Shown here: one piece after another, positions 7,976 to 23,915 of the stretch | Position numbering within the stretch: the first letter of the stretch is position 1 | Layout of the letters: each line of letters starts with the position of its first letter | Origin: Sulfurisphaera javensis | Lineage (GTDB): Archaea > Thermoproteota > Thermoprotei_A > Sulfolobales > Sulfolobaceae | Assembly: GCF_041154675.1 (NCBI RefSeq) | Contig: NZ_AP031322.1 | Location: 186,001 to 250,000, forward strand | Direction of reading: 5' to 3' | Length of the DNA: 64,000 bases | The notes under the pieces: generated by a model | Databases searched by the model: none | The model's input: only the letters and a program-made list of their open reading frames with translations | What the model was told of the DNA's origin: nothing | Position numbers and translations under genes: made by a program

Positions 7976-8071
7976 TAGTGATGATGATCTCTAACTTCAT
8001 AGACTCTTAAAACAGCTAAAGAGAACATGTGAGGAAATAAAGCTTTTTAGACTAAAAGAAAATATTGAGAT

Positions 8072-8314: not shown

Positions 8315-8709
8315 AGCAAAATATGAGGTTAAAAAGATAAATCCCACTAAAATTTTAATAAGAACTAAAGAAGAAAATTTAATTATTCAAATTTTTTATT
8401 CCTATTGCTATTTTTGCGACTTCTGATTACAAGAGTATCTCTCCCATAGTTAATGCAGTTATTGCAATAGATACTGACAATCCGAAATATGGTGAATTAT
8501 GTAATCCTCTTAAGTACTCTTCTCACATTCCAGAAAAAATAGTAGAACAGAAAACTTTAGATGAAGGAGAGACCATAATATATCTCAATGAGAAGGAGTA
8601 TGTAATTAAAGGTAAAATCACTAACCTTAATGTATATACAGATTTAAGGGATCAACTAGGTAACCCGTGTGTGAACATTTCATGGACAGTCTTAACGATT
8701 ACAAAATAG
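8295..8709 (+). pseudogene. Frameshifted small gene (T-run slip at 8392-8397)
   Basis: Translation from ATG 8295 gives MMIQIIRAKYEVKKINPTK... and stops soon after a run of six T at 8392-8397. Removing one T joins it to a second open frame (IFIPIAIFATSDYKSISPIV... to ...VNISWTVLTITK, stop at 8709), giving one protein of about 137 residues. Both halves have the same beta-rich character. This is a broken gene, a sequencing error in a homopolymer, or programmed frameshifting; the sequence alone does not decide. It overlaps the neighbours on both sides. Confidence 0.55.
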
Positions 8710-8957
8710 ATTGTAGATTCGTATTTAGTGAAAAGAAGAGAAGACTTTTAGAGAAAAGACTTATTCAAGAAATAATACCTCTTTTAGAATATAGGAACAT
8801 TTCCTTTATAAAATTCTGTGATATTTTAAATTATGTTTGTCGTAATCCAGACAAATATTCATGCTTACAATGTTATGATAGTAATTTAATGGAATATATT
8901 ACTAACGTTTGTGCAACAAACTGTGAAAATAAAAGTAGGAAGAGTTTTTTGTTTTAA
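8682..8957 (+). CDS. Small Cys-rich protein of unknown function
   Basis: From ATG 8682 (MDSLNDYKIDC...) 91 residues; an alternative GTG/ATG-region start at 8667 adds five. Seven to eight Cys residues, including CRNPDKYSCLQC and CATNC, suggest a metal site or disulfides. The middle (EKKRRLLEKRLIQEIIPLLEY) is a basic amphipathic helix. No family recognised. It overlaps the broken gene before it and the short frame after it, so it is part of the same string. Confidence 0.45.
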   Translation: MDSLNDYKIDCRFVFSEKKRRLLEKRLIQEIIPLLEYRNISFIKFCDILNYVCRNPDKYSCLQCYDSNLMEYITNVCATNCENKSRKSFLF

Positions 8958-9075
8958 AATTCAAGATATTCATTTTAATATAATAGCGGAAAGTGATAGA
9001 GAACCAATTATAGTTACTTTTTATATAATTTCTGATCCAAAAGATTTTAGAAATAAGTGCAACATAGAATTCTAA
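8923..9075 (+). CDS. Possible 50-residue beta-rich protein or gene fragment
   Basis: GTG start at 8923 inside the preceding frame; ends with TAA at 9073-9075. The product (VKIKVGRVFCFKIQDIHFNII... to ...ISDPKDFRNKCNIEF) alternates hydrophobic and polar residues like the proteins at 8072 and 8295, and may be a remnant of a paralogue. It is too short for firm support. Confidence 0.3.
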   Translation: MKIKVGRVFCFKIQDIHFNIIAESDREPIIVTFYIISDPKDFRNKCNIEF

Positions 9076-9131
9076 CTTCTATCTGAAAAAAGAAAACGTG
9101 CGTTTAGAGCTAGAATTAACACAAATTGTTC

Positions 9132-9833
9132 TCATAGCAGTTCACTTATTTCTCCAAATTCTACTTCATTTCCCTTTTCGCAACCAGAATATGCTAATGA
9201 GGAAGAGAAAACATAATCCTCGCCCTTGTAAAGTTTATAATATTCTTCCGGTATATTCTTAGCCTTTATGTACTCCACGTTATAGTAATTAAAATAGTAA
9301 AGAGAGGATTTCCTACTTTCTCTATCTATGTAAAGAATGAAAAGGTTTAAGGCTGACCTTGTGAATTTTTTAAGATCTTTTACACCCTCTATTCCTTTTG
9401 CAGATATATATTTGGCAACAAGCTCAGAATCCACCATCATTTTGGGATTTATGTTAAGATATTTGCCTAATTCTTGCTTATCAACACTACCATTATGGGC
9501 TAAAAAGAAAATTTCTTTTTCATTACTCTCTAAATAAGGGTGAGAAAGAAATGAAGCAACTAACGATTTATCACTTGCCAATCTTGCGTGAATTATAACT
9601 TTAAATTCTCCATAAAGGGGATCTAACAAGTTGAATAAAATTTCACTTTCATTAAATATTGGATTTCCACTACGATAATGAATTAGCTTTTCCCCATTAT
9701 AAGCTACTAATCCCCATCCATCTTTATGAACGTCATGAGTTATTGGATCATCTTTTGCAGAGTTTATTAAACAAGAAGCTAGTTTTTTCAGTTTTTCTTT
9801 ATCCTTCCCAACGTAAGCTAACATTCTGCACAT
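9132..9833 (-). CDS. Class II glutamine amidotransferase (YafJ/DUF3-like)
   Basis: 233 residues. Cys2 directly after the initiator Met (MCRMLAYVG) is the Ntn nucleophile once Met is removed. The conserved HKDGWGLVAYNG block, HARLASD near residue 84 and LAHNGS near residue 111 match stand-alone GATase II proteins of the EgtC/YafJ type. It lacks any synthetase domain, so the ammonia acceptor or true substrate is unknown. Possibly an amide or gamma-glutamyl hydrolase. Monocistronic; it diverges from the small membrane-protein gene at 9866. Confidence 0.85.
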   Translation of the reverse strand: MCRMLAYVGKDKEKLKKLASCLINSAKDDPITHDVHKDGWGLVAYNGEKLIHYRSGNPIFNESEILFNLLDPLYGEFKVIIHARLASDKSLVASFLSHPYLESNEKEIFFLAHNGSVDKQELGKYLNINPKMMVDSELVAKYISAKGIEGVKDLKKFTRSALNLFILYIDRESRKSSLYYFNYYNVEYIKAKNIPEEYYKLYKGEDYVFSSSLAYSGCEKGNEVEFGEISELL

Positions 9834-9865
9834 ATTTTTATATTAGCTTTTTAGATTAAAATAAT

Positions 9866-9985
9866 ATGAGTAACGAAAATGACAAGGAGGATTGGAGTAT
9901 AACAATTCTTTTAGCTGAAATAGGATTATTAATTGGTATAATTCTAGTACTGTTAAAAATATTACCAGCATTAGCCCACACATAA
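9866..9985 (+). CDS. 39-residue single-helix membrane protein
   Basis: ATG at 9866, TAA at 9983-9985. The product begins MSNENDKEDWSIT and then has one hydrophobic helix (ILLAEIGLLIGIILVLLKIL) with a short tail. It ends 2 nt before the start of the LOG-like gene, so the two are probably co-transcribed. Function unknown. Evidence is the strong topology of the peptide and the tight spacing. Confidence 0.5.
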   Translation: MSNENDKEDWSITILLAEIGLLIGIILVLLKILPALAHT

Positions 9986-9987
9986 TT

Positions 9988-10515
9988 ATGCAAATCGGAA
10001 TAGCTGCACATAGCGGGAATGTTTCTCAAGATCTTGTTAAGAAAGCAGAAAGGTTTATTGAAAAAATTTCTGAATGTAAAGATGTAAGACTTCTTTTAGG
10101 AGGATATTGGGGCTTAATGAAAGTTATTGTAGATAAAGCGCTTGAATTAAATTTGCCAGTTATTCTTTTACTTCCAATAGAAAGGGAGGAGGTTGAAATC
10201 CCTGAAAAAGTAGTAAAAGTTTACACGGGTTGTGAATTTAGATGTAGATCGGTAATGTTGGTAAGATCTTCAGATGTTTTAGTTAGTTTAGGTGGTGGGG
10301 TTGGTACAGAAATTGAAATGTTTATGGCTTACGCAATGGGTAGGCCTGTTTATTCTCTAATAAATACTGGGTTATCAACTGATTTATTAAGGTCTTCATT
10401 CCCAGAATATTTTGATGATAGGAAAGTTATTAAGATAAAATATTTTGATGACCCAGAAAAATTAGCTATTGCAGTCTGTGAGGAAAGAGAAAAAATAAAA
10501 ACTGAATTTGGATGA
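9988..10515 (+). CDS. LOG/TIGR00725-like Rossmann protein
   Basis: 175 residues. Features are MQIGIAAHSGNVS at the N-terminus, LLLGGYWGLMKVIVDKAL (residues ~35-52) and SLGGGVGTEIEMFMAYAMGRPV (~95-116), matching the nucleotide-binding LOG/lysine-decarboxylase-like superfamily (SLOG). True LOG cytokinin-activating enzymes carry PGGxGTxxE; here the motif is LGGGVGTEIE with the catalytic-type Glu kept. Likely binds or hydrolyses a nucleotide; the precise substrate is unknown. Overlaps nothing; follows the 39-residue membrane protein by 2 nt. Confidence 0.75.
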   Translation: MQIGIAAHSGNVSQDLVKKAERFIEKISECKDVRLLLGGYWGLMKVIVDKALELNLPVILLLPIEREEVEIPEKVVKVYTGCEFRCRSVMLVRSSDVLVSLGGGVGTEIEMFMAYAMGRPVYSLINTGLSTDLLRSSFPEYFDDRKVIKIKYFDDPEKLAIAVCEEREKIKTEFG

Positions 10516-10528
10516 ACTTTCAAAGAAG

Positions 10529-11344
10529 TTAAAATTCACAGTAATACGTTTCAACACCTTTAACATCTACTCTTTCGGAGTAAACATAACCGCCATCTTT
10601 TTCTTCATTTGCAGTAGTAATGTATAAAGTCTTTAAATCTGAATCTCCAAAAGTAACTGAAGTCACATGTGATGCTGGTAATCTTATTTCTTGTAGTATT
10701 TTTCCTTCAGTAACTCTTAATACTCTTCCTCCACCATATAATGCTACCCATAGCATTCCTTCAGAATCAATTGTCATTCCATCTGGTACTCCAGGATAGG
10801 ATGAAAGATCTATTACTGTTCTTCTATTACTTATCTCTCCTTTCTCTAAATCAAAATCAAAAACGAAAATTTTCTTTGTTGGTGAATCGATATAGTAAAA
10901 CTTCTTATTATCTAAACTCCAGGCTAATCCGTTAGAGATTGTAACGTTATCTAAGACTTTTCTGAACTTTAAGTTTAAATCAAGGACGAAAAGACCACCA
11001 GTGGGATATTTTTCTTCTAAATTCATTGTTCCTACCCAATATCTTCCTAAGGCGTCACATTTTCCGTCATTAAATCTATTTCTATCATCCCATTCTTTCA
11101 CTTCATAGAGAAGTTCTACCTTTCCTTCATTTACTATATAAAATCCTTTTCCTGCAGTTGCAATTAGTCCTCCTTTCTTTCTCGGTTGTATTGAGCTTAC
11201 ATAAGTATCAAATTTTATCACATTATGTTCATTTTCCTTAAGACTATGTATTTCTCCATTTAAAATGTCAACAAAATAAAGAGTATCTTTTACCCAAATA
11301 GGCCCTTCAAAAAGTCTACCCTTAAATTCTGTAACTCTTTTCAT
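10529..11344 (-). CDS. SMP-30/gluconolactonase family lactonase
   Basis: 271 residues forming a predicted six-bladed beta-propeller. Metal-site motifs are present: FEGPIW (Glu), [17 protein letters not shown] (Asn, Asp), ISNGLAW (Asn) and VPDGMTID (Asp). Members hydrolyse sugar lactones such as gluconolactone; in Sulfolobales this would fit the step after glucose dehydrogenase in the branched Entner-Doudoroff pathway, which is inference. Translationally coupled to the small upstream gene (4-nt overlap). Confidence 0.85.
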
Positions 11345-11631
11345 GTGTTAATATCTCCAATCTCAATTATATTTCCTTCTTCATCTTCAAAAACAATCTT
11401 TCCTTCCTCAGTGATTACGATATAACCTATTTTATTATTGCATTTGTAAGGAAGTGCGAGTAAAGCCTTACTCTTAACTTGATTAGTAGCAAAAACGGGT
11501 GTAAGAGAATCGTTGAATTCTAAAGCTAAGCAATTTGGTGCTTTTTGAAATATTAGGTTTAATAATTCATCAAGGAGTTTCTCGTATTCCTCTCCTATCT
11601 GTCTCATTCTTCTTAGATCCTCAAGGTTCAT
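11341..11631 (-). CDS. Small conserved-type protein upstream of the lactonase
   Basis: 96 residues: a helical N-terminal half ([23 protein letters not shown]) and a beta-rich C-terminal half ([21 protein letters not shown]). It shares a 4-nt start/stop overlap with the SMP-30 gene, so it is part of that operon and might be its partner. Not recognised; no catalytic motif visible. Confidence 0.6.
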
Positions 11632-11776
11632 AAGAGTAAGTAAAGGTTTGCCAATAAATTTCTTATTCTAATCTACTGTGAAAATATTTTATTTAATAAA
11701 TTATCAATAAAATAATTAACTATAAAAATTTTACTCTTTACATATTTTATCTTCTTTAAAATTCCTTTAACAAGGT

Positions 11777-11832
11777 TTAACATATTTATTATGATAGTTT
11801 AAACATCTTGTAAATCAAGTTAAATATGTTAA
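11777..11832. promoter_or_regulatory. Inverted-repeat cluster upstream of the DUF2173 gene
   Basis: A perfect 12-bp inverted repeat, TTAACATATTTA (11777-11788) and TAAATATGTTAA (11821-11832), lies 44 bp centre to centre, about four helical turns. Inside it are the palindrome GTTTAAAC (11797-11804) and CTTG-N5-CAAG (11807-11819). The block ends 22 nt ahead of a TATA box at 11854-11863. The arrangement looks like a multi-site operator for a dimeric or looping regulator; the regulator is not known. Confidence 0.5.
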
Positions 11833-11853
11833 TAAAATGTTTTTCACAAAAAT

Positions 11854-11863
11854 CTTATATATA
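11854..11863 (+). promoter_or_regulatory. TATA box of the DUF2173 gene
   Basis: CTTATATATA, centred about 33 nt ahead of the ATG at 11892. Transcription would start near 11885, giving a leader of only some seven nt. Confidence 0.55.
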
Positions 11864-11891
11864 ACATAGATATAATAATAAGTAGATAAAT

Positions 11892-12236
11892 ATGTCAGTT
11901 TCTGAAAAGCTCGATAGGTTAATGAAACTAAAAGGAGCAATAGCAGCGGGAAGTTTTACTGCAGATGGTAAAGTAGTTGACTATAAAGGTCCATTAAGTA
12001 AAGAAATGGCAGAAATGGTAGCAATGATGTGTGCAGCAAATACACTAATGGCAAAAATGCAAGCAGAAGGTTTTACTAAATTTAGTGGGATGAAATGGAG
12101 TCCATTACATGGATGGGCCGTAGCTGCTGGAGATTATGCTGTCTGTGTTATGGGATATTATGGAGTTTTCGTAAAGCTATCAGAAGCAGACTTTAACGAA
12201 ATATTTAAAGTATTGGGAGAAGTAGCTCAATCTTAA
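11892..12236 (+). CDS. DUF2173 protein (roadblock/LC7-like)
   Basis: 114 residues. The pattern KLDRLMKLKGAIAAGSFTADGKVVDYKG and GYYGVFVKLSEADFNEIFKVLGE fits DUF2173 (COG4831, roadblock/LC7-like small alpha/beta proteins). Such proteins occur next to sulfur-metabolism genes in several thermophiles; the function is unknown. Met- and Ala-rich middle (EMAEMVAMMCAANTLMAKM) carries one Cys; a second Cys is at YAVCVMG. The elaborate promoter and clean TATA box suggest strong or tightly controlled expression. Converges on the winged-helix regulator gene, 16 bp away. Confidence 0.75.
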   Translation: MSVSEKLDRLMKLKGAIAAGSFTADGKVVDYKGPLSKEMAEMVAMMCAANTLMAKMQAEGFTKFSGMKWSPLHGWAVAAGDYAVCVMGYYGVFVKLSEADFNEIFKVLGEVAQS

Positions 12237-12242
12237 AGAAAA

Positions 12243-12256
12243 TTTTTCTTTTTTAT
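12243..12256 (+). terminator. T-rich terminator after the DUF2173 gene
   Basis: Plus-strand stretch TTTTTCTTTTTTA directly after the DUF2173 stop, the usual form of archaeal terminators. It overlaps the last bases of the convergent regulator gene. Confidence 0.5.
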
Positions 12257-12846
12257 TCAATTTTATTTTTAACATATAATTTCTGCAAAATTTCACAATA
12301 ATGATTTAGTTTTATACCTTCAACTTTGCAGTTTACAGCTATTGCATACGGTATTCCTTTATCATTAAAAGAGATGATTCCTCTACAGTATGGGGTTATA
12401 TTTACTGATGGAAATGTTTTTAACAAATAGTGTGCTATCAATCTTTTCGTCTCTTCCGATAACTCATTTATAAATGGATATAAAAAACCAGCTAAAGAAA
12501 CAGGATAATTTAGGCATACGTTTTTAATATCTATTTTGTTATTTTCTATTAAATTACTTACATCTTTTAATAATGAATATACCTCACTAACATCTCCTTC
12601 ATAATTCCATATTTCTTTTAGCCTCTTTGCAATAATTTTCCTTACTCTTTCATCTTTATAATTCTTGAAGAGTACAGCTAAACCTTTTGGTGTTATGCTA
12701 AAATTCTTTTCACCTTTGCTTACATATCCTTCTTTACATAATTTCTTTAAAACTCTCCATGCTGTTGCTGAGGGTATTCCAAGTTCTTGAGAAAGTCTGT
12801 ATGATGATAGTGGACCTATTAGTGTTAATTTTGTTAATATTTTCAT
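12253..12846 (-). CDS. Winged-helix transcriptional regulator with Cys-containing C-terminal domain
   Basis: The longest frame begins at 13011, but I choose the ATG at 12846 (197 residues, MKILTKLTLIGPLSSY...). The first residues then open directly into a winged helix-turn-helix (SSYRLSQELGIPSATAWRVLKKLCKEGYVSKG), and an A/T-rich TATA-like sequence (TTTTTATTTTTA on the minus strand, about 12866-12877) lies some 26 nt upstream, as for a leaderless gene. The C-terminal domain holds four Cys (NVCLNYP, TPYCRG, VNCKVEG, NHYCEIL) that could sense redox or sulfur state; this is inference. It follows the NrfD-like gene on the same strand and is a natural candidate regulator of the sulfur locus. Confidence 0.7.
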   Translation of the reverse strand: MKILTKLTLIGPLSSYRLSQELGIPSATAWRVLKKLCKEGYVSKGEKNFSITPKGLAVLFKNYKDERVRKIIAKRLKEIWNYEGDVSEVYSLLKDVSNLIENNKIDIKNVCLNYPVSLAGFLYPFINELSEETKRLIAHYLLKTFPSVNITPYCRGIISFNDKGIPYAIAVNCKVEGIKLNHYCEILQKLYVKNKIE

Positions 12847-12898
12847 TTCTTTGATAGAACTTTTTGCGGAAAGTAAAAATAAAAAATGTAGTTTAAAA

Positions 12899-12913
12899 CG
12901 AGATATAATCTCG
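12899..12913. promoter_or_regulatory. 15-bp palindrome upstream of the regulator gene
   Basis: CGAGAT-ATA-ATCTCG, perfect 6-bp arms, lies 53 nt ahead of the preferred regulator start and upstream of its TATA-like sequence. It may be an operator, perhaps autoregulatory. If the regulator really started at 13011 this site would be coding. Confidence 0.4.
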
Positions 12914-13115
12914 ATCGCAGAGGGATCTATTTGTCTAACAGAGGAAAGTACGAGACTCTCCTTTATAAAAAATACTATAAAATCTGTGAATATGAAATAA
13001 CCTAATACCATTTATTATCATATTATATTTACTATATAGGTTTAAAAATTTTATTTATAATAACCCTTTCTTAATAATTATTAATATAATAGAAAAAATG
13101 AAAATAACTTAACTT

Positions 13116-14195
13116 TTAGCCTCTCCATCCGAAACTTCCTATTGGGATAGGCTGGTTACTAACAATCTGGAATGGCGTCATAGGGGCTACTTGGTATGCA
13201 TATTGACCAGCAAATAATATGTCTGCTCTAGTTAAATAAGCCGCAATTATTGCGAATATCGCTGCAACTAATACTGCATATTTAACTGCTGTAGGAAGGT
13301 CAGTAGGTTTAATTTCACCAATAGCCTTACTTGCCTCATTAGGAGGCTGTCTAAACATTATCCTTAACATTGGAGAAGCCACTAAGCTTCCTCCTCCAGC
13401 TATTAGAACTGATAAAACAGAGAGCGTTAAATCTAAGTAGAATGTAGTTTGAGATAATAAGTAATCATAAGCTACTTCATCAAATACGTAAATGAAGTTT
13501 ACAGTTGCGAGAAATAAGAACCATGACGCTAGTTCAGCAATTCCGGAATAAGCTATTAATTTTGCCATTAATCTTCTAGCCACGATTCCTTCATCACCCT
13601 TAGTTACAAAAGCTAGTACATATCCAATGCCTGCACCAACAAAAACTCCGCCTGCTAAGAATAGTAGAGGTAGGGCACCATTATTCCAAAAAGGAATTCC
13701 AGTAGTTGCAGCAAACTCGAAACCACTATAAGTTGTTGTAAATATTCCAAAAAGCATTCCTAAAACTGCAAATATTATTCTAGCTTTTCTAGCTATTCCT
13801 TGAGGTAATTTTAAGAATACAGAAAAAGTATAAAGTAAGGAGAATAACAGAAGTCCGGATACAAATATTATACCCCTAGCCATCCACGAATGAGAGAAGT
13901 TTATCAAAGCCTCAATAGGGGACGAAGTTGCAGCTAAAGGTCTTCCTAAATCATAAGCGAAGAAAGCAAATGCTAATATTGTTGCAACAAACACTGTAGG
14001 AGCGCCTTTTTTAGCCATACTTGGGTATTTTCCAGTAAGCTCTAATGCACCTATTATAGCCATTAACATACCTGCAACTTCTGTAAAGTACAATGCTAGT
14101 GCAACTTCTGTACCCCATAATGGATATTCATTAATTTGTTGAATAGGTGCTTGAATACCATACGGAGGTGGCGCTGGTGCTGTAAAGAGTCCCAT
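13116..14195 (-). CDS. NrfD/PsrC-family membrane anchor of a sulfur/polysulfide reductase-like complex
   Basis: 359 residues with about eight to nine hydrophobic helices. NrfD-family marks are FAYDLGRP (~residue 78), [28 protein letters not shown] (~170-198) and a late TRAD segment. Such subunits carry or bind quinone and anchor the exported molybdenum catalytic and iron-sulfur subunits. It lies on the minus strand, separate from the subunit genes at 15285-20447, yet has the same upstream 25-nt element at the same 37-nt distance, so it is very likely their anchor (SreC-like in Acidianus terms). No exported signal is needed. The winged-helix regulator follows 269 bp downstream. Confidence 0.85.
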
Positions 14196-14232
14196 TTCTA
14201 TTCATTTGCACATTAATTAATTATTTAAATAA

Positions 14233-14257
14233 ACATTCACTTCAGTTTTGTAATATG
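14233..14257 (-). promoter_or_regulatory. Conserved sulfur-locus promoter element, anchor-gene copy
   Basis: On the minus strand it reads CATATTAC, one variable base, AAACTGAAGTGAA, one variable base, GT. The same 25-nt block (23 identical) lies ahead of the catalytic subunit gene at 15223-15247. In both cases exactly 37 nt separate it from the ATG, and a TATA-like A/T tract containing AAATAATTAATTAAT follows. This is where an activator or repressor adjacent to the BRE/TATA would bind. Confidence 0.75.
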
Positions 14258-14259
14258 AA

Positions 14260-14273
14260 TAGTTATACATATT
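14260..14273 (+). repeat. TAGTTATACATATT repeat, copy 1
   Basis: Fourteen bases repeated exactly and in the same orientation at 15215-15228. This copy lies between the anchor-gene element and the TPR gene start and could act on the TPR promoter. Confidence 0.5.
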
Positions 14274-14312
14274 TAGCTATCTTTTTAACCTTTCATTAGA
14301 AAAATAAAATAT

Positions 14313-15203
14313 GTGAATATTGACGAATTAATAGATCAAGGAAAATATGAAGAAGCACTAAAACAATTGAAAGGAGATGATGAAGATACTAAGCTCTTTA
14401 GAGGGTATTTGCTCTATAAACTTAATAAATGTGATGAGGCTATAAAAGAAATACAGAACGTAGATAAATTAGAATCTTATTACATTAGGTTTGAATGTTA
14501 TAATTTATTAGGCAAAGAGGATGAAGCAGTAAAGTCATTAGAAGAAGGAATAACCAAGTTTCCCTATAGTCATATTCTTTATTTTATGTTGGCTAAACAT
14601 TATTTTGATAAAAATCAATTAAATAAAGCTTTAGAGTCTATAGATAAAGCTCTTGATATCCTTCCTATAAGTTATGATTACAAATTTCTAAAGGCTAAAA
14701 TACTTTTCCAAATGGGTAATTATGATGATGCTATAACTTATCTTAATGATGTTATTTCATTAAATCCGAAAAACTTGGAGGCAAGGGTAATGAAAGCTAT
14801 GTGTTATTATAATGTTGGTTTAAAAATGGATGCTCTCTCAGAGATAAATAAGGCTTTAGATATAGATAAAAATAATGCAAATCTACATTTTCTTAAGGGT
14901 AAAATTTATTTCGAAACTGGATTTTATAAATTAGCCTTAGCTGAGTTTAAGATAGCTTTAAGATTAAATCCTTCGCCAGATATGTATTACCACGTTGCCT
15001 TATCATATTATATGCTAGGACTTCATAGAGATGCTGATATGTTTATAGATAAGGCTATAGGCATAGAAGAAAGAGGAAGATATTATTCTCTTAAAGCTAG
15101 AATAATTAAGGAATTAGGAGATATAGCAAGAGCAAAAGAGTTTGCCAATAAAGCAATAAGCTTAGATCCAGATACGAGAAAAGAACTAGAAGATTTATTA
15201 TAG
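14313..15203 (+). CDS. TPR-repeat protein
   Basis: 296 residues, GTG start at 14313 (an ATG two bases earlier is out of frame and hits a stop at once). Made of about eight tetratricopeptide repeats; clear units are at YSHILYFMLAKHYFDKNQLNKALESIDKALDILP and NLHFLKGKIYFETGFYKLALAEFKIALRLNP. No signal peptide or catalytic domain. TPR proteins act as scaffolds. It sits between the anchor and catalytic subunit genes, so a role in assembling or regulating that complex is plausible but unproven. It ends 81 bp before the molybdoenzyme gene. Confidence 0.85.
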   Translation: MNIDELIDQGKYEEALKQLKGDDEDTKLFRGYLLYKLNKCDEAIKEIQNVDKLESYYIRFECYNLLGKEDEAVKSLEEGITKFPYSHILYFMLAKHYFDKNQLNKALESIDKALDILPISYDYKFLKAKILFQMGNYDDAITYLNDVISLNPKNLEARVMKAMCYYNVGLKMDALSEINKALDIDKNNANLHFLKGKIYFETGFYKLALAEFKIALRLNPSPDMYYHVALSYYMLGLHRDADMFIDKAIGIEERGRYYSLKARIIKELGDIARAKEFANKAISLDPDTRKELEDLL

Positions 15204-15214
15204 TTTTTTATTTC

Positions 15215-15228
15215 TAGTTATACATATT
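15215..15228 (+). repeat. TAGTTATACATATT repeat, copy 2
   Basis: Exact same-orientation match to 14260-14273. This copy overlaps the first bases of the conserved promoter element of the catalytic subunit gene. Confidence 0.5.
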
Positions 15229-15247
15229 ACTAAACTGAAGTGAAGGT
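15223..15247 (+). promoter_or_regulatory. Conserved sulfur-locus promoter element, catalytic-subunit copy
   Basis: CATATTAC, one variable base, AAACTGAAGTGAA, one variable base, GT, matching the minus-strand copy at 14233-14257. It is followed by the TATA-like GTATAAATAATT (15246-15257) and, 37 nt after its end, by the ATG at 15285. TATA spacing predicts a start of transcription near 15277 and a leader of about eight nt. Confidence 0.75.
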
Positions 15248-15284
15248 ATAAATAATTAATTAATTTAACAACATTTCGATAGGA

Positions 15285-18200
15285 ATGAGTAATTTAAAAC
15301 TAACGAGGAGAGATTTTCTAAAGCTTTCTGGAATAACAGCGTTAACTACTGCTATCTTATTTGAAGGAGGATCTGTCATAGATAAAGTGTTTAAATCCCA
15401 AGAAGATTTCACATATACACTAAATTATACTAATGACGAGATTGTGTATGGTAATTGTTTTCAATGTTTAGGAAGATGTGCATTAGAAATAGTTAGGACT
15501 CCACAAGGATTTCCTAGATTCATAACTGGAACAATAGGATGGCATATAAATGATGGTGGAGTTTGTCCTAGAGGTGCCTCTGATGTTTATTACTACTTTG
15601 CACCAGCTAGGTTAAGGTTTCCTCTATTAAGGGCTGGCGATAGAGGATCAGGGAAATGGATAGCAATTGATTATGATACTGCTTATGATATAATAATAAA
15701 TGGTGCTAATGCTTCTAGTTGGAGCAAACTAGGAATATCACCACAACAATTAGGAGTTTCTAACTTTGCTGGTTTACTCAAGATAAGAGAAGAGAACCCA
15801 CATTCGCTTGCATTCTTCCAAGGACGAGATCAGCTTATTCCGGGTATTACGGCAGGATTCTTTGCTGGTAATTTTGGTACTGCTAATGCTGGAGCTCACG
15901 GTGGATTCTGTTCAATGAACGTTTACACTGCTGGAGTTTATGTAACTGGAGCACCAGTTTGGGAATATGCTGGGCCAGATGAGGAAAGAGCACAATATTT
16001 TATATTAGCTGGATTAGCTGGAGATCACTTCCCTAATTGGATGAGAAGGATAATAGCAAGAATAAGAGAAAATGGAGGGAAAGTTGTAACTATAGCACCA
16101 GAACGTTTTGGATTTTACTCTGTCTCGGATGAACACTTATTCATTAACCCAGCAACTGACGGAGCCTTAGCTATGGGATGGATTAGAGTACTTGTAGACT
16201 TTCATTATTATGTTTATAAAGCGTATCTAGCCTCAACTGGTCAAAGTAGTCAAGTGCTCAATCCACAAACACTACAACCAGTATCGCCAGCTTATGATCC
16301 TTCAACTGGTCAACTAATAATGCAAACAGTTACTCCTTCTGGAGAAGTTATTCAATTACCACAATTTGGTGACGTACCAACTACTGCAGTATTTCCTCAC
16401 ATAGATGAAGAGTTCTTAAGATACTATACTAATTTATCATGGTTAGTAATCGTTAATCCTAATCCACAGAATGGTGATTGTTTAGATCCAACTGATCCGA
16501 CTGCTGGAAATAATGTTGGTCTTCATTTAAGAATGCCAGTTAATAACCCAGAATATTCATCTTCTCATCCATGGTTAGAAGCAATAATGGGAAGTGATGG
16601 AAATATATATTCTTATGTTGACACACCATGGCAAAAAGGAGTGTTTCCTATTCTCACTCTAGATGAATTACCATCTTCGACGCAGAGTCAGATAGTTCAA
16701 GTTCCATATAAATTAAAGAATGGACAAACTGTGAAAGTTCCAGCAATACAAGTTACAGTACCTAAAGCTTTAGGAAGTAATGAAACAATAACTTTAACCG
16801 TAACAACAGCTTTTGAATTATTTAGAGCTGAATTACTAAATTATGATCCTTATACACCTTATACACAATCTCCTCAGTATGGTGCACTTAATGTAGCTTA
16901 TGTAGCTGGAATACCACATGATACTATAGTAAGGATTGCAAATGAAATTGCTACTACGGCTTTCCAGAAGTCAATTTACGAACCTGCAAAGTGGGTTGAT
17001 TATTTAGGCAGATACCATGATCATGTAGTTGGAAGACCAGTATCAATTTACTTTATGAGAGGATTAGCTGCTCATGCAAATGGTTTCCATAGTGCTGCTG
17101 CATATTATTATCTAGTCCTTGTTATTGGAGCTTGGGATAATCCAGGAGCTGATTTGTACAAGTATCCATATCCTCACTATTTCCCTGGTCATGCTGTCCC
17201 ACCACATCCATTAGCAAATACACCAACATTAGATCAAGATATTGCTAATGCCATACAAGGGCAAAACTTAACATTCCCTAAGACAAGATCTGGTTTCCTA
17301 AAGACAGAGTATATTTATAATGATGGTACAGTTGATATTAAGAATGTAGCTATAGTTGGTGCCGGTCCTTATGGTTTTCCAGATGGGCCAGATGACCTAG
17401 TAATTTACAAGAATGGAAGACCATTATTAGTTGATAGAGGATATAGCTGGGAAATACCATTAACAACACAAAGGTCAATTAGTGCTGTTGCCTATACAGC
17501 ATATTATATGAATAAGTATCCTAACCAAGTAGTGCCTTATACAGTTCAAGCTATGATGTGGTACATTACTGCCCCATATTGGAATAACGCTTATACATTG
17601 ACTGATCTGTTACAAAAGGTAACAGAGAAAGATAATAGTGGAAATTATATAATACCATTCACAATAAGTATAGATTTATTTATGCAAGAGACAAATAATG
17701 TGGTAGATTTAATAATTCCGGACTTGTCATTCCTAGAAATTTATGGTTTTCATTCTACTTTCGATAGACCTACCAGTTTGCCACAAGGTCCCTCAGATTC
17801 TCTAAATTGGCCAGTACTACCAGCTATGTATCCAGTGTTAGCTGCTGGTGATTTCTTATTAACTTTAGCTTGGTTATTGAGAATATATCCTAATCAAGGT
17901 AATAATATAGATCCAACTAAGAATCCTCATTATACAACTCAAGATCCGGTAACTGGTTTGCCTTTAATAAGTCCAGTTACTGTTCATGATCCTCTAACTG
18001 GGACTGTAATATTACAACAAGGTCAGCCTGGCTTAATATCTACTGGCATGTTTATATTAAAGAGCGGAACATTATTAGCTGGATATGGCAATGAATTCCA
18101 GTATATATTGACTGATGAAAATGGACATCAAACTCCTAATCCTCAACAGCTAAAACTTTATGCATCATTTGTTCCCAATGGTTCTAGCCAACAAGACGTT

Positions 18201-19595
18201 ATAAACCAAATATTAAGTAGTGTGCCTCAAGGACAAACATTCTCTACTGCTACAACTTATAAGATAGCTGCTAATCAAAGATCTAGTGGAATAGAGCATT
18301 ACTTTAGAATTCCGGTACAATTCCAGCCTAAGCTACAACAAATGCTAGAAAGTATAATTAGCAAATACGCCTCTGGCCAAATGAGCATAGATGACATTAA
18401 TCCAGGTTATGTAAAAGTAGGAAAAGGCGGAGCCGTATATGTATTACCACCTTCAATTAGATACATGAGAAACGTTAACATGTTCTACTTCAAAGGATGG
18501 GGTGCTTATATGCCGGGTGCTTATGGGCCTATTGGATTGCCTTATATACACAGAATATATTTAGAATATCTACAAAAGTTTAGACTAGCAGCCGCTGGTA
18601 AATGGCAAGGCTATAACGCTGCCTATTATTACTTCTATCTAAAGACTGGTAATACACAATTCTTAGTCAGAAGTATAGTTCCAAATGATTCTTATGGGAA
18701 AGCTCTAGCAAAGAACATATTAGATTATCATAAACCATTTGGTGGATATTATCCACCACCAGCGTGGAATTCTGAGTTAACTTCTGACGGAATAGATTTA
18801 AATGAATATCCATTAACGTTCTTCGTGAGAAGGCATGATAGAACATATCATTCTTGGAGTTTTAATGTTCCATGGTTAACTGCTATAATGCCATATAGCG
18901 CTGTTATGTTAAGTGCATCAGATCCCTATGTACAAAGTATGGGCATTCAAAGTGGTGACTTTGTTCAATTCGAGGCAGTCAATGAACCTTGGTCTGGAGG
19001 ATTAAGAACTACATTAACAGCTATAGCATTTCTAGATAATGCAACTAGACCAGGTGCAGCGTGGGTAGTCGTTTCAGCACAAGCTCTACCAAACTTTAGA
19101 GGTATGACACCAGATTCTCCACAAGTAAAGTACAGTGTACTAAATAATTGGGCTAATATACTCTATATGCCACCATCAAGAGGAGGTCAATTATCTCCTC
19201 AAACAGATAATGCGTTCCCAATAATGTATTTAGATCCTATAACTGGTCAAACATCGTGGCATGATAGTAGGATAAAAATAATTGGTAAAGTATCAGCTTC
19301 ACACACCTCAGTAACAGCTAATAGATTTGTTTATATGGGTCAAGACTTCTCTGGCCAAGATATAATGTCAGTTATAGTGAATCAAATGGGAGGCTCAATA
19401 AGTGTAAGTGGGGTTAGTAACGGAGCACCTTTTGCTCAAGCAGTAAATATACCTCACTTAAGGTTCAATGCAAACAATATGCAATCAACCTCGTTATGGA
19501 GTTATGTGGCTCCATATTCATTAGCAGCTAACAATTATCAACTAGGTAATTATAAGATAAGATATGGTTTTGCGGGTGAGTCAACATCAAGTTAA
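15285..19595 (+). CDS. Tat-exported molybdopterin oxidoreductase catalytic subunit, sulfur/polysulfide reductase-like
   Basis: 1436 residues. The N-terminus [11 protein letters not shown] is a twin-arginine signal, so it is exported folded. A [4Fe-4S] site follows: CFQCLGRC (Cys58, 61, 65) and Cys94 in GGVCPRGA. The expected molybdenum ligand is Cys209 in [10 protein letters not shown], as in PsrA-like members of the DMSO reductase family; GRDQ precedes it. The C-terminal cofactor-binding domain appears after residue ~1180. Length is well above the family's usual 750-1000 residues: insertions near residues 318-365 and 880-920 are rich in Gln, Pro and Thr, and DPxTG occurs four times. First gene of a run with iron-sulfur subunit, chaperone and polyferredoxin. 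Sulfur or polysulfide is the likeliest substrate; tetrathionate or another oxyanion is possible. Confidence 0.85.
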
Positions 19596-19613
19596 GTTTT
19601 TTCTCTTTATAAA

Positions 19614-19620
19614 GGAGGTG
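19614..19620 (+). promoter_or_regulatory. Strong Shine-Dalgarno site of the iron-sulfur subunit
   Basis: GGAGGTG with eight nt to the ATG at 19629, in the 33-bp gap after the catalytic subunit gene. A T6 run at 19597-19602 just before it might cause partial termination and so set subunit ratios; that is speculative. Confidence 0.6.
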
Positions 19621-19628
19621 TTAGGTAA

Positions 19629-20447
19629 ATGTCCTCCATAACCCTAAATCCTAAAGAAGGTGGAATTCAAAAGTCTCTTCCCTTTACTCCAAAGAAAAAC
19701 TATGCAATAATAACCGATTTAAACAAGTGCTTCGGCTGTGCTGGGTGTCAAATGTCATGCAAAGAATGGAATACCTCAGGAATGTTTGGACCACTACCAG
19801 ATCTAAATCCTTACGGAGAACTTGATGTTATGTTCTGGCTAAGGGTTCTATATGTAGAGGTCGGTAATTATCCCCAAACGAAAGTTTACAATATTCCTAT
19901 AAACTGTTTCCACTGTATGAATGCTCCATGCGTCCCTGTATGTCCAGTAGGTGCGACGTTTAAGAGAGAAGAGGATGGGATAGTTTTAGTGGACTATAAT
20001 GAATGCATAGGAACTAAATATTGTATCTATGCATGTCCTTATGGTAATAGGTTCTTCGATTATGTTGAAGGTGTTACCAAAAAGTGTACTCACTGTTTCG
20101 ATAGAATATACGATCCAACATTGCCTCCTGAAGAAAGAATTCCTGCATGTATTCATGGATGTATGGTTCAAGCTAGGATATGGGCTGACAGATTAGATCC
20201 TACTGATCCGGGTAACATATTATTTATAGATAAAGGAGGTTTTGTATTAGGACCAGAAACTGGTGCTAATCCAGCTAGTGGATATTTACCATGGCACAGT
20301 GATTATGCTGCAGATAATGATGTTGAGTTACTAAGTCAAGCTGAGTATTATAATGTTTGGACATCAAACGGAGTTGTTATACTAGGTAGCCAAGGTAATA
20401 ATTCTACTTATACTGAGCAAAATCAAGGTGGATCTTCTTCAAGTTAA
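19629..20447 (+). CDS. DmsB/PsrB-type iron-sulfur subunit with a Cys-to-Thr change in one cluster site
   Basis: 272 residues, no signal peptide; it would be exported bound to the Tat subunit. Cys groups: [11 protein letters not shown] (34, 37, 40, 44), [13 protein letters not shown] (93, 96, 101, 105), [11 protein letters not shown] (126, 132, 136) and CTHC...CIHGC (153, 156, 174, 178). In the third group position 129 should be Cys (CxxCxxC) but is Thr. In NarH the same position is Trp and the cluster is [3Fe-4S], so a [3Fe-4S] cluster is predicted here. It passes electrons between the membrane anchor and the molybdenum subunit. The Ser/Gly/Asn-rich tail after residue ~245 looks unstructured. 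Confidence 0.9.
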
Positions 20448-20457
20448 GGTGTTTTTT

Positions 20458-21108
20458 ATGTCTTCTCTTCTTGAAATTGCATCTATGAGATTTTTAGTTT
20501 ATGATTCTTTTAGTCAATTATTCCTTTATAATTATTATGATGAGGATTACAGTCAATTAATCAAAAAGCTAGGGAAATTGAAGGATATAGGCGAAATAAA
20601 CTCAATAGTAGATTTTCAATCAATATGGGAAAAATTAACCTCATCTAAAAAATCTGATTACTTAATTGAATATTCTACTCTTTTCCTAACTGGTCTTGGA
20701 GTTAAACCTTTAACACCAGTTGAAAGTAAGCGTTTCTTCTCTTTAATGGGAGAGAAGGTGGCAAAGTTCAGAAAAGATGACATTTTGCGTTTTTACCGTT
20801 CTAGAGGGCTTAAGCTAAATTATTTAGGACAATTTATATTCGAAGAGGATCATATTTCAACTATTTTTGCCTTTATGGCTTATCTTATAAATGAGGAATT
20901 AAAGTTAAGACAAGAAAGAAAAGACGTTTACAAGAATTTAATGGATCAAAAGAATTTCTTTTTAACTCATATATATGGCTGGATACCAGATTGGATAAAC
21001 GATGTAATTAGTGATAAGAGATCGGATATTTTCAAAGTAGTTTGTAAGGAGTTAAGAAAATGGATTGACTTCGAGAACAATTACTTATTGAGGGGGAGTA
21101 AAAATTGA
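20458..21108 (+). CDS. TorD/DmsD-like chaperone for the molybdoenzyme
   Basis: The longest frame starts at 20428 inside the previous gene; I choose ATG 20458 (216 residues, MSSLLEIASMRFLVYDSFSQLF), preceded by AAGGTG. The protein is helical with the TorD-family layout (IEYSTLFLTG near residue 78 and EEDHISTIFAFMAYLINEE near residue 132, where an E-x-D-H motif is typical). Such chaperones bind the Tat signal and help cofactor loading. In the Acidianus sulfur reductase cluster a similar system-specific chaperone is called SreE. Its stop overlaps the TTG start of the next gene. Confidence 0.75.
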   Translation: MSSLLEIASMRFLVYDSFSQLFLYNYYDEDYSQLIKKLGKLKDIGEINSIVDFQSIWEKLTSSKKSDYLIEYSTLFLTGLGVKPLTPVESKRFFSLMGEKVAKFRKDDILRFYRSRGLKLNYLGQFIFEEDHISTIFAFMAYLINEELKLRQERKDVYKNLMDQKNFFLTHIYGWIPDWINDVISDKRSDIFKVVCKELRKWIDFENNYLLRGSKN

Positions 21109-22571
21109 ATATAGGACTTGTGGTAACTAGAAAAGTAAGAGAAGAATTAACGGATGATTTTCTGGTTAAAATATATAAAGAAAGCGGTATTCCTTATGTC
21201 GCTGAATTTGGTGATTATTTGACTACTGATGTAAGAGATAATGAACTTCAAGGACTTTTAATAATCTCTGAAAATGACATGTCAAAATTTGTATCTGAGG
21301 CTGACGAGAAATTAGGAATAAATCCATTAGCTATCGAAGTATTACCACTTCAATGGTTTATTAAAAAGTCTGAAAATTACAAATTTACTTTGCTTATGGC
21401 ATATATAAGAAAATTAATGAAACAAGATTTAGTATATAGACTTCAGCCAATAAAGAATGTTACAATAACAAGAAGATCTTTAATAAGATTTAAGCTCTAT
21501 GATTATAAACCTTATCCAGTACTCTTTGACTCGATATTTGCTGAAAGGGAAATAAATACACTGATTTCATCTTGCCCTAAAAACTTAATAGCAAAAAGCA
21601 TTGAGGGAGTTGCTGTAACTTCTCCAGAAAATTGTTCTTATTGTGGTTATTGTACTGCGAAAGGCTATTTAGGATATTTAGAAATGCCTAATTTTACGAC
21701 TGATCAGTTAGTTTATTTTCTTAATGCAATAAATTATTATGACGAGAAAGCTAGAGCTTTATTATTCACAAAATCTCAAGATTTAAGCATAAGTGAAGGT
21801 CAGTATCCTCTTTTAGTTCCATCTATTGCTTCAATTCCAGATGTATTCGTTTATGTTGTATACGCTTCTGGTCTTATTCCAGTAATCGTGACAGGAGAGG
21901 ACTTAACAGAGTTAGAAAAGAAAAGATTGGAAGAAATTCCAGATTATTTTCCAGCTTCTAAATTACCTATATATAAGATTAATAAGAAAGAAATAGATAA
22001 ACTGAATTTTCAGATCAGTCTTAAGAAGTCTCTAATTCCAGAGGATTTACCATTAAAGAAATATAGAAGGAGAACTCTTTATTTATGGGCTATAGAGGAA
22101 ATGAAAAATAAGGTTAAACTTGATGAAGAGGCTGTAATTCCTGATGTTTATTTCGTAGATGTTGATCCTAATAAATGTGTTTTATGTGGTGTCTGTGTAA
22201 GAGCATGTCAAATGATAGTCCCAGATATGAAAAACTTGAATGGATCCCTCTCATTAGAGTATAATATACCGATGTGTATTGGTTCGCAAAGATGTGTAAA
22301 GAATTGCCCAGAAAACGCTATAAAAGTTGAGAGGTTTGCAAAGTTGAAAGAGTTAAAGAAGGTTACTGTTAATCAAGCCGAAATTGCTAAGTGTAGGTAT
22401 TGTGGTAAGCCAATAGGTTCAGTTAAGGTAAAATCAAGAGTTGATACTCTTTTAATAAATATGGGCTTCAGTGGAACGGCACAGTATACTGATGTTTGTA
22501 ATGAGTGTAAGCAAAAGATGTTAACTAAAATGTGGCTAGAAAACTATTTAAAAATAAAAGGAGGAAAATAA
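21105..22571 (+). CDS. Polyferredoxin-like protein of the sulfur-reductase locus (SreD-like)
   Basis: 488 residues, TTG start at 21105 after GGGGGAG, overlapping the chaperone stop. Cys sites: CPKN...NCSYCGYC around residues 155-186; a ferredoxin-type pair CVLCGVCVRAC (~353-363) and CIGSQRCVKNCP (~383-394); and a zinc-ribbon-like CRYCGKP...CNECKQK near the C-terminus. The second ferredoxin motif has Ser where the second Cys is expected, the same deviation as in the iron-sulfur subunit. No export signal or membrane helix, so probably cytoplasmic. It may feed electrons or serve maturation of the complex. The first 150 residues are not recognised. Confidence 0.7.
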   Translation: MNIGLVVTRKVREELTDDFLVKIYKESGIPYVAEFGDYLTTDVRDNELQGLLIISENDMSKFVSEADEKLGINPLAIEVLPLQWFIKKSENYKFTLLMAYIRKLMKQDLVYRLQPIKNVTITRRSLIRFKLYDYKPYPVLFDSIFAEREINTLISSCPKNLIAKSIEGVAVTSPENCSYCGYCTAKGYLGYLEMPNFTTDQLVYFLNAINYYDEKARALLFTKSQDLSISEGQYPLLVPSIASIPDVFVYVVYASGLIPVIVTGEDLTELEKKRLEEIPDYFPASKLPIYKINKKEIDKLNFQISLKKSLIPEDLPLKKYRRRTLYLWAIEEMKNKVKLDEEAVIPDVYFVDVDPNKCVLCGVCVRACQMIVPDMKNLNGSLSLEYNIPMCIGSQRCVKNCPENAIKVERFAKLKELKKVTVNQAEIAKCRYCGKPIGSVKVKSRVDTLLINMGFSGTAQYTDVCNECKQKMLTKMWLENYLKIKGGK

Positions 22572-22572
22572 A

Positions 22573-23172
22573 ATGTATATATTCGCTTTTAATTTCTTAA
22601 ATACAATAGCTAAAGTAAAAGAAGATATTATAAAACAAATATATGATTTACAGTGCGTTCTCAACACTTATACTTTAGCTAGAGTCTATATTCCTTTTAC
22701 AGCTTTATTACAATCAAAGGGAATAAAGCTTGACCTTGAGTTATTTCAAGATGCACTTATGTTAGAAGAGTTAAGCTATAGGGCACGGATATTTATCATA
22801 ACGAACTTAGAAAAAATGTTTGTCAAACAATTTTTAATAAAGCACAATATTGATGTTTTTATTCAAGATGTTATATCAGCTGAGGAGATTAAAAGATATA
22901 AGCCCTCTACGGAATTTTTTGAATATGTCACTAAGAGAACAAATACTGTAAAAGGTGCAATAACTGTAGTTTCCTCAAATCCGCAAGATATAATTGTAGC
23001 AAAATCATTAGGCTTTAAAGCATATTGGTTAAATCGTTCATCTATACAATTTCCGTTTCCAGTTAATTTACAACCTGATAATGTGATAAAGACGATAACT
23101 TATTTAGCAGAGTCAACTGCTCGACATAAAGTAGACTCAACTATGGGTGATTCAGCTCTGAGGTGTAGTTAA
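22573..23172 (+). CDS. HAD-superfamily protein lacking the nucleophile Asp (pseudoenzyme)
   Basis: 199 residues similar to L-2-haloacid dehalogenase-type HADs. Motif II (FIITN), motif III (KRYKPSTEFFEYV) and motif IV/C-terminal block (VVSSNPQDIIVAKSLGFKAYWLNR) are all recognisable. Motif I, normally FDxxGT, reads FNFLNT: the nucleophile Asp is Asn7 and the Gly is Asn10. It should not hydrolyse substrates by the usual aspartyl-enzyme route. Starting 1 nt after the polyferredoxin stop, it belongs to the sulfur operon; a binding or regulatory job is possible. The stop overlaps the next start. Confidence 0.75.
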   Translation: MYIFAFNFLNTIAKVKEDIIKQIYDLQCVLNTYTLARVYIPFTALLQSKGIKLDLELFQDALMLEELSYRARIFIITNLEKMFVKQFLIKHNIDVFIQDVISAEEIKRYKPSTEFFEYVTKRTNTVKGAITVVSSNPQDIIVAKSLGFKAYWLNRSSIQFPFPVNLQPDNVIKTITYLAESTARHKVDSTMGDSALRCS

Positions 23173-23585
23173 TGGCCACAGATACAGAAATATATAATTG
23201 GTTTGTAGAGTTAGGAATGAAAGTTGAAAAGGTCACTTCTGGTAATGCTTATTTTCATATAACTGTTTCTCCACCTATAGAAAACAGTGTTAAAGTTTCA
23301 ATACTTAGGTCGCATCCTAACGCAACATACTATATAATTACTGTTATAGTTGATCTTGATCATGAAAAGATAAAAAGAAATCCTTCTATACTAAAGAACA
23401 TAAAATTAGAACTAATTAGGATGAACTTAGAATTTTTCTTTATGCCTCCAGATGCTGAAATACCAAAGAGTGTCCAAATAGGCAAAATTGTGTTTGCTGA
23501 AGGGTTAACAAAAAATGAAATATTAAATACTGTAACTTTAGTCAAAAATGGGGCTTATATGATTTTAACTCTTTTAGAAGGTTAG
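23172..23585 (+). CDS. DUF2299-like protein
   Basis: 137 residues, alpha/beta: an N-terminal helix (TEIYNWFVELGMKVEK), strands (AYFHITVSPP) and IGKIVFAEGLTKNEILNTVTLVKNGAYMILTLL at the end. The latter resembles archaeal DUF2299 proteins, small proteins with a chaperone-like fold and no known activity. It is the last gene of the plus-strand operon (1-nt overlap with the HAD gene) and overlaps the convergent DsrE gene by 12 bp. The family call is from memory of the pattern. Confidence 0.6.
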   Translation: MATDTEIYNWFVELGMKVEKVTSGNAYFHITVSPPIENSVKVSILRSHPNATYYIITVIVDLDHEKIKRNPSILKNIKLELIRMNLEFFFMPPDAEIPKSVQIGKIVFAEGLTKNEILNTVTLVKNGAYMILTLLEG

Positions 23586-23915
23586 TATTTGGTATCCCTC
23601 GTTTGCAAATTTAACTATCACGTCTGCTCCTTTAGATATCTCGTTAAAGTATATCAAATCTTCTTTGTTCACATTATAGTTCTTCATTGCCATTTCACAT
23701 GCATAAACAGTGATATTCATTTTCTTTAAGTTTTCTTGAGCTTTATTAACTATTTGTGACACGTCATTTTTCTTATTTAGTGCTGTTATCCCGGGTCCTA
23801 GGAAAACCATTTTAACGTCATCTGCCCCCATCATTTTTAATCCTTGAGCTACATTAACTGCTGTATTTACATTTAGTTGATCTTGGGATTTTACAACAAG
23901 AAGGAACTTTGCCAT
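23574..23915 (-). CDS. DsrE family protein
   Basis: 113 residues, small alpha/beta: MAKFLLVVKSQDQLNVNTAVNVAQGLKMMGADDVKMVFLGPG then YACEMAMKNYNVNKEDL, where the single Cys is at the position that carries persulfide in active DsrE-like proteins. DsrE/TusD relatives pass sulfane sulfur in the cytoplasm. Converging on, and overlapping, the end of the sulfur-reductase operon, it probably handles sulfur made or consumed there. Confidence 0.85.
   Translation of the reverse strand: MAKFLLVVKSQDQLNVNTAVNVAQGLKMMGADDVKMVFLGPGITALNKKNDVSQIVNKAQENLKKMNITVYACEMAMKNYNVNKEDLIYFNEISKGADVIVKFANEGYQILTF

Follow-up and report, generated by a model that had tools for sequence, protein, structure and literature searches.

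The 64-kb window analysed here (positions 186,001 to 250,000 of contig NZ_AP031322.1 of Sulfurisphaera javensis, G000:C1:186001-250000 in our numbering) comes from a closed genome of 2.57 Mb. It carries a cluster of genes around a complex iron-sulfur molybdoenzyme (CISM). The genes named in a first-pass annotation of this stretch all lie at or near the places given there, and domain searches returned the domains assigned to them (Table 1, window positions). The clear CISM complex that it had described was likewise confirmed, with an NrfD/PsrC-like anchor (PF03916), a molybdenum (Mo) subunit, an Fe-S subunit (PF13247) and a TorD-type chaperone. Beside these genes lie those for a winged-helix regulator, a tetratricopeptide repeat (TPR) protein, a relative of SreD, a protein of the haloacid dehalogenase (HAD) fold and a DUF2299 protein.

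Table 1. Genes and promoter elements of the locus, in window positions
Feature	Position	Strand	Remarks
DUF2173 protein	11892..12236	+	PF09941 4.8e-42; neighbour only, at the locus genus-restricted
Winged-helix regulator, 252 aa	12253..13011	-	C166, C209, C228, C239; present at 19/19 loci
NrfD/PsrC-like membrane anchor	13116..14195	-	PF03916 4.3e-11; 8 hydrophobic segments (hydropathy)
Promoter element ATATTACAAAACTGAAGTGA	14237..14256	-	upstream of the anchor TATA box; inverted relative to the downstream TPR gene
TPR protein	14313..15203	+	PF07719 1.2e-27; without signal peptide; kept at all loci
Promoter element ATATTACTAAACTGAAGTGA	15224..15243	+	immediately 5' of the TATA box of the Mo operon
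Mo/W-bis(pyranopterin guanine dinucleotide) catalytic subunit, 1436 aa	15285..19595	+	Tat motif RRDFLK; FS0 Cys 58/61/65/94; predicted Mo ligand Cys209
Fe-S subunit, 15 Cys	19629..20447	+	PF13247 (Fer4_11) 2.8e-19; no signal of its own
TorD/NarJ-type chaperone	20428..21108	+	PF02613 1.4e-13; true start may be ATG 20458
SreD-like Fe-S/Zn-ribbon protein, 488 aa	21105..22571	+	profile match to SreD 99.6%, E 4.1e-24
HAD-fold protein without motif I Asp	22573..23172	+	HAD_2 1.3e-10; C-terminal tail VDSTMGDSALRCS
DUF2299 protein	23172..23585	+	DUF2299 8.1e-37; class I type III secretion-chaperone/YbjN fold (model)
DsrE-like protein	23574..23915	-	DsrE 5.9e-12; neighbour only, at the locus genus-restricted

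We compared 19 loci from related genomes, taken around the orthologue of the SreD-like protein, and counted gene presence in 31 genomes of the family and, more widely, in 229 genomes of the class. The relatives include Sulfolobales archaeon Acd1, Metallosphaera yellowstonensis, M. javensis and Candidatus Aramenus; we take locus L044 to be that of strain A20 and L047 that of S. acidocaldarius. Nine genes, encoding the regulator, anchor, TPR protein, Mo subunit, Fe-S subunit, TorD, SreD-like protein, HAD-like protein and DUF2299 protein, were present at 19/19 loci. At L046 the compared stretch includes only the beginning of the Mo gene; genome searches placed the Fe-S and TorD genes just beyond the stretch. 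The Mo subunit was found in 22 of the 31 family genomes with 74-93% identity, and the anchor is 52-89% identical in relatives. No Mo subunit of this type was detected in families other than Sulfolobaceae among the 229 class genomes, and the family search did not find the module in S. solfataricus- and S. islandicus-like genomes. The set is complete even at L044-L047, where the Mo-FeS-TorD block is inverted or relocated and the anchor gene has shifted behind DUF2299: the rearrangement flips this block relative to TPR-SreD-HAD-DUF2299-anchor, and the nine genes stay together. Most genes at the locus therefore belong together as a Sulfolobaceae module. The gene-neighbourhood check suggested in the first-pass annotation, for which a lack of conserved neighbours would have spoken against the system, thus came out in its favour.

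The genes of the module are closely packed in the window. The TorD and SreD-like genes overlap by 4 nt, a gap of 1 nt separates the SreD-like and HAD-like genes, and the HAD-like and DUF2299 genes overlap by 1 nt. These junctions are not due to chance, because comparably tight ones recur in the loci of relatives. The proposal that one-nucleotide overlaps tie the last proteins to the operon holds for HAD/DUF2299 but not for the DsrE-like gene, which cannot be tied to the operon because it lies on the opposite strand and converges with the DUF2299 gene. At the other end, the DUF2173 gene converges on the regulator gene. Among the 19 loci, DUF2173 and DsrE are found at the locus only in the genus of the window, and we rejected both as members of the system to which they had been assigned.

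The Mo subunit, a member of the DMSO-reductase superfamily, is highly divergent: its Pfam match is marginal, PhsA and TtrA score best among the NCBIfam profiles, and among solved structures PsrA comes closest. The residues R8, R9, F11, L12 and K13 of its twin-arginine translocation (Tat) motif are invariant in 18 sequences, as are the FS0 cysteines C58, C61, C65 and C94 together with C209, which aligns with PsrA Cys173. With an FS0 Cys motif, a Mo-ligating residue, and an Fe-S subunit and NrfD-type anchor that both score above the cut-off, the complex has the features of a CISM; binding of Mo/W-bis(pyranopterin guanine dinucleotide) and quinone activity are predicted. The SreD-like, HAD-like, DUF2299 and TPR proteins start without an export signal. 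TorD and the HAD-like, DUF2299 and TPR proteins have no hydrophobic segment. These proteins would therefore be expected to remain cytoplasmic when the Mo subunit is exported. We also noted that at L036 (G028) an insertion of about 1.2 kb splits the Mo gene (region 7717-13200) near codon 633, so that this strain probably has no intact complex. A match to the Fe-S subunit gene in another genome (G009:C1:1695685-1696488) contains an in-frame TAA.

The product of the gene at 21105, described earlier as an unusual polyferredoxin, matched a profile of four canonical SreD proteins in hhalign over 392 columns. Its invariant cysteines (157, 177, 180, 183; 358, 361, 364, 368, 391, 397, 401) and those of a Zn ribbon (430, 433, 465, 468) fit three Fe-S sites plus the ribbon rather than a full polyferredoxin. 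In one of the three sites Ser394 would stand in for a Cys: it is present in 20/20 sequences at the position where canonical SreD has Cys (CIGC). Canonical SreD also has N-terminal Fe-S ligands that the SreD-like protein lacks, and the middle-domain Cys are missing in the genus of the window. NapF gives a weak profile match (E 5.7e-5), to which the SreD-like protein adds N-terminal and Zn-ribbon domains.

Ever since the first description of the sre operon, SreD has lacked an assigned function (PMC8551704, PMC3189178); its genomic company suggests a part in the maturation of exported enzymes. Full-length relatives, assigned by hand from the match table, are present in 42 of 122 good class genomes; a TorD-type chaperone occurs in 34/42 of these genomes and in 7/80 of the rest (Fisher 7.5e-16, uncorrected for relatedness). 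At L074 (11321-14224), tatA, a tatA-like gene and tatC come directly after a SreD-family gene, and another gene of this family lies beside tatC and tatA at L081 (7852-10652). In Thermoproteus tenax, sreD and sreE belong to the Tat-bearing sre operon, whereas the Tat-less copy has sreABC only (PMC3189178). Because the SreD-like protein has no export signal, and because of this association with TorD, the pairing in T. tenax and the adjacency to Tat genes, we favour a cytoplasmic role before export. By this genomic association, the SreD-like protein may be needed for Fe-S loading of the exported Mo subunit: it might supply or hold Fe-S clusters for the A and B subunits before Tat export, in a role like that of NapF, and TorD would bind and proofread the Mo subunit.

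The structural model of the HAD-like protein (mean predicted local distance difference test, pLDDT, 88.5) has as its nearest structure the L-2-haloacid dehalogenase of S. tokodaii (2w43; TM 0.80, E 8.5e-13). The fold of the proposed HAD pseudoenzyme was thus borne out, and in the window the motif I nucleophile Asp is replaced by Asn (FNFLNTI). The Asp is also lost in the Sulfolobus group, and an Asp is retained only in the Metallosphaera and Saccharolobus forms (LIDVES), so that catalysis is not the conserved property. What is conserved is the C-terminal tail, MGDSALRC(S/T), which is nearly invariant; mean pairwise identity is 0.80 over the last nine residues and 0.34 over the body (1-175). 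The tail is disordered in the model, with low pLDDT, and carries Cys198 in 19/20 sequences. It occurs in 21/22 module genomes and 0/9 others, once per genome and only in the HAD-like protein, so that we rejected a general tag. A by-product of the DUF2299 ribosome-binding site was rejected too, as identity is 0.85 at codon position 1, 0.91 at position 2 and only 0.46 at position 3; it is the protein sequence of the tail that is conserved. At L043 (G005) the module is present with the tail replaced by VDKDLYVSKGCGI, which also has a Cys near the C terminus; the other frames show no MGDSALRC, excluding a frameshift.

For the DUF2299 protein (model pLDDT 92.6) the best structural match was 3cxj (Z 15.5), and further matches were to YbjN-like proteins and to class I type III secretion chaperones (SycT, SpcU and CesT, Z 10-11). 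The match to the secretion-chaperone fold has Z 10-12.5 over 107-126 of 137 residues and so covers the whole domain; by its model, DUF2299 has the class I type III secretion-chaperone fold, in a module without a type III secretion system. Chaperones of this class hold their partners by extended segments. The DUF2299 protein could likewise bind a peptide in extended form. Candidates are the invariant tail of the HAD-like protein, whose gene always adjoins, and the unfolded precursor; we infer that DUF2299 pairs with the tail. The HAD-like protein would then be a scaffold that acts through its Cys-bearing tail, and the TPR protein may be a further scaffold. A literature search on DUF2299 returned nothing. 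Second copies of DUF2299 were seen in the host genome itself (G000:C1:63874-64284, minus strand, 33% identical) and just upstream of the module in Acd1 (L035, 3521-3943).

The regions upstream of the anchor and Mo genes have a TCATATTACAAAACTGAAGTGAA-type sequence in common that abuts a TATA-like box, and an element ATATY-N7-TGAARTGA precedes both genes, at a distance of about 50 nt, across most of the family. The core ATAT[TC]-N7-TGAA[GA]N[GT]A is placed mostly 39-55 nt before the anchor and Mo starts and has one orientation at both; by chance, 0.5 matches would be expected for the 19 loci. Searched with up to 3 mismatches, the longer pattern occurs exactly twice per genome in four Sulfurisphaera genomes, at the anchor and Mo sites; the reversed control gave 0 or 1. 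At L044 and L046, where the TPR gene stands alone, a similar inverted copy is found at that gene. Of the 41 matches that the short exact element has in module genomes, 32 lie at the module. Its genome-wide totals in the 31 genomes (47 versus 51 for the reversed control) equal the control, so that matches outside the locus are background. An extended regulon, as the cluster had been called, is therefore too broad a term; the shared element marks only the module locus.

The site just upstream of the TATA box is where archaeal activators often bind, and the protein that reads the element is most likely the winged-helix regulator. Its C209, C228 and C239 are invariant even in paralogues beside cluster C (described below) and doxDA, and these shared residues suggest redox, metal or sulfane sensing. 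The private element before the anchor/regulator unit and the Mo operon would thus switch expression of the module, most likely through this Cys-rich protein.

The module resembles the sreABCDE system of Acidianus ambivalens and T. tenax in having Mo, Fe-S and NrfD-type anchor subunits, SreD, a TorD-type chaperone (SreE) and a Tat-exported Mo subunit. It differs from sreABCDE in its 1436-aa Mo subunit, the anchor gene on the opposite strand and the chaperone gene before the SreD-like gene, adds the TPR, HAD-like, DUF2299 and regulator genes, and has no hydrogenase linkage. The idea of a variant system with extra factors stands in so far as the CISM is distinct from sreABCDE and the TPR, SreD-like, HAD-like and DUF2299 genes travel along with it, but not for DUF2173 and DsrE. 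The closest relative is a cluster found in three Sulfolobaceae genomes (L073-L075; cluster C), with an anchor of about 361 aa, a Mo subunit of 1230-1260 aa, an Fe-S subunit, TorD and SreD. Its Mo subunits score 640-700 bits against the hidden Markov model of the window family and are about 40% identical, and its Fe-S subunits are 51-53% identical. A winged-helix paralogue adjoins in L073 and L075. Unlike the module, cluster C lacks TPR, HAD-like and DUF2299 genes, which therefore belong to the window type. It lies near doxDA in L073 and L075 and has tatA, a tatA-like gene and tatC behind it in L074; the promoter element was not detected at cluster C. In the host genome, a SreD fragment, a winged-helix paralogue and doxDA lie at 2.35 Mb (L083, 7565-10806), about 5 kb from NiFe hydrogenase genes; this is a remnant of a lost cluster C-type CISM. 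PsrABC (2vpw) shares with the module a Cys-ligated Mo subunit, an Fe-S subunit, an NrfD anchor and outward orientation, but its Mo subunit is about half the size and it has no accessory set. Of the redox-enzyme maturation proteins (NarJ/TorD), the module has TorD.

Taken together, we read the locus as encoding a Sulfolobaceae-specific, outward-facing CISM with a dedicated cytoplasmic assembly set, a private promoter switch and a sulfur compound as substrate, to which we give a probability of roughly 0.6. The complex would be quinone-linked and sit on the outer face of the membrane, with the Mo subunit exported by Tat, the Fe-S subunit carried along and the NrfD protein as anchor. The analysis itself shows the conservation of the module, the export signal, the cofactor residues, the predicted folds and the cis element; the assembly roles, the pairing of regulator and element and the substrate are what we infer. 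A maturation role for at least some of the extra genes is the best reading. As substrate we consider an inorganic sulfur compound outside the cell the most likely (thiosulfate, tetrathionate, sulfite or polysulfide), used aerobically as well as anaerobically. Several points weigh against this reading. PsrA His145 has no counterpart in the alignment of Mo subunits, and the substrate is a guess from the enzyme subfamily. The link between regulator and element rests on co-conservation, and G005 has the module genes with no recognisable element and the changed HAD tail. The association of SreD with TorD is uncorrected for phylogeny, and some families have SreD without a PF02613 match or without a CISM: at L077, L078 and L079, from other families, full-length SreD-like genes stand alone, and about 8 kb around them holds no recognised CISM gene. 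A shared fold, finally, proves no function, and YbjN and 3cxj have the DUF2299 fold with roles that are unknown.

A reading of the complex as a variant Sre system that provides a second S0/polysulfide reductase in H2-S0 respiration would account for a Cys-ligated Mo subunit nearest to PsrA/PhsA and for the SreD homologue and TorD, as in sreABCDE. We consider it improbable. A canonical, collinear sreABCDE lies separately in the host genome (2.313-2.320 Mb, L050), as does a HynL-type NiFe hydrogenase large subunit (2.344 Mb). Across the 31 genomes the module is associated neither with SreA (7/22 with the module, 3/9 without; p = 1) nor with close HynL homologues (5/22 and 1/9; p = 0.64). With tblastn at 1e-4 the Mo subunit had no match in the locus holding SreA, which is a separate gene, and of four sreABCDE features that we checked only a SreD homologue was found, not SreA orthology, the collinear A-B-C-D-E order or co-occurrence with HynSL. 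The module is also present in aerobic Metallosphaera and at the loci that we take to be those of strain A20 and S. acidocaldarius. Both of these organisms have been reported to be without Sre (PMC5127849). Because sreABCDE and the hydrogenase lie elsewhere, the occurrence of the module does not depend on either and Metallosphaera, which are aerobic, carry it, the earlier label of sulfur respiration is unsupported. Somewhat less doubtful, though still unlikely, is that the module is the sulfite-oxidising SoeABC of the Metallosphaera genome papers and passes sulfite electrons to quinone. The hosts oxidise sulfur aerobically, and SoeAB is reported for all Metallosphaera genomes (PMC7325606). As 5/6 Metallosphaera genomes searched yielded no full-length CISM Fe-S subunit other than that of the module, the SoeABC of those papers is probably the module complex. 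SoeA, however, is cytoplasmic (table in PMC10100899) and has no Tat signal, and the invariant Tat motif argues that the module's Mo subunit is not of this type; nor do the S. solfataricus- and S. islandicus-like genomes carry the module. A literature search with M. sedula locus tags found nothing.

The accessory proteins allow other readings too. A less likely possibility is that the SreD-like protein is a structural subunit for electron transfer, placed at the anchor on its cytoplasmic side and linking the quinone pool to a cytoplasmic carrier, and not an assembly factor: its Fe-S sites resemble those of HycF, NuoI and FwdF, the Zn-ribbon end is conserved and T. tenax SreD is annotated as an Fe-S electron transfer protein (PMC3189178). 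NrfD anchors have no redox cofactor of their own, however, so that a transmembrane wire is not obvious. The invariant Ser394 as an Fe-S ligand, the loss of the middle-domain Cys in the genus of the window and the association with TorD and Tat genes also speak against it. For the HAD-like and DUF2299 proteins as a pair, sulfur delivery might be envisaged, with the C-terminal Cys handing on sulfane sulfur to the Mo centre or to the site of the substrate in the manner of the DsrC arm or of FdhD. The near-constant Cys198, replaced by another Cys near the C terminus in L043, and its place in the most conserved, low-pLDDT stretch at the protein end would suit such a carrier. Yet the whole tail is conserved and not the Cys alone, docking fits equally, the module has no sulfurtransferase, and DsrE is not conserved; we doubt this reading. 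Within the preferred reading of a dedicated assembly set, we tentatively envisage quality control of Tat metalloenzyme export, in which DUF2299 would grip the Cys-tipped tail of a dead HAD protein and, with the SreD-like protein, TorD and the TPR protein, load and check the Mo subunit, under a Cys-sensing private switch; this extended picture is speculative.

The promoter element, the DUF2299 fold, the HAD tail and the SreD homology of the 21105 product are new here, and several uncharacterised proteins become candidate assembly factors. DUF2299 gains a fold class and an operon context, and the winged-helix regulator a predicted operator. Finding a SreD relative among presumed cytoplasmic proteins makes a maturation role testable in the tractable S. 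acidocaldarius, presumably the host of L047. CISM genes near SreD and TorD in Sulfolobaceae need not mean sulfur respiration; many aerobes carry the enzyme.

Other genes were observed around the module. A protein of about 300 aa without a Pfam match is encoded by a gene that overlaps or abuts the winged-helix gene (L040, 4623-5531; L044, 11299-12183; L037, 3619-4518); it occurs at Metallosphaera, Saccharolobus and Sulfolobus-type loci and was not seen at the window locus. An SMP-30/gluconolactonase-like gene and a 96-aa gene (window 10529-11631, minus strand) adjoin the module in the genus and in L034, not elsewhere. Further away, window positions 60865-61134 (plus strand; G000:C1:246865-247134) are part of a gene for an Fe-S protein of about 400 aa that has relatives in most genomes of the family, whether or not these carry the module.

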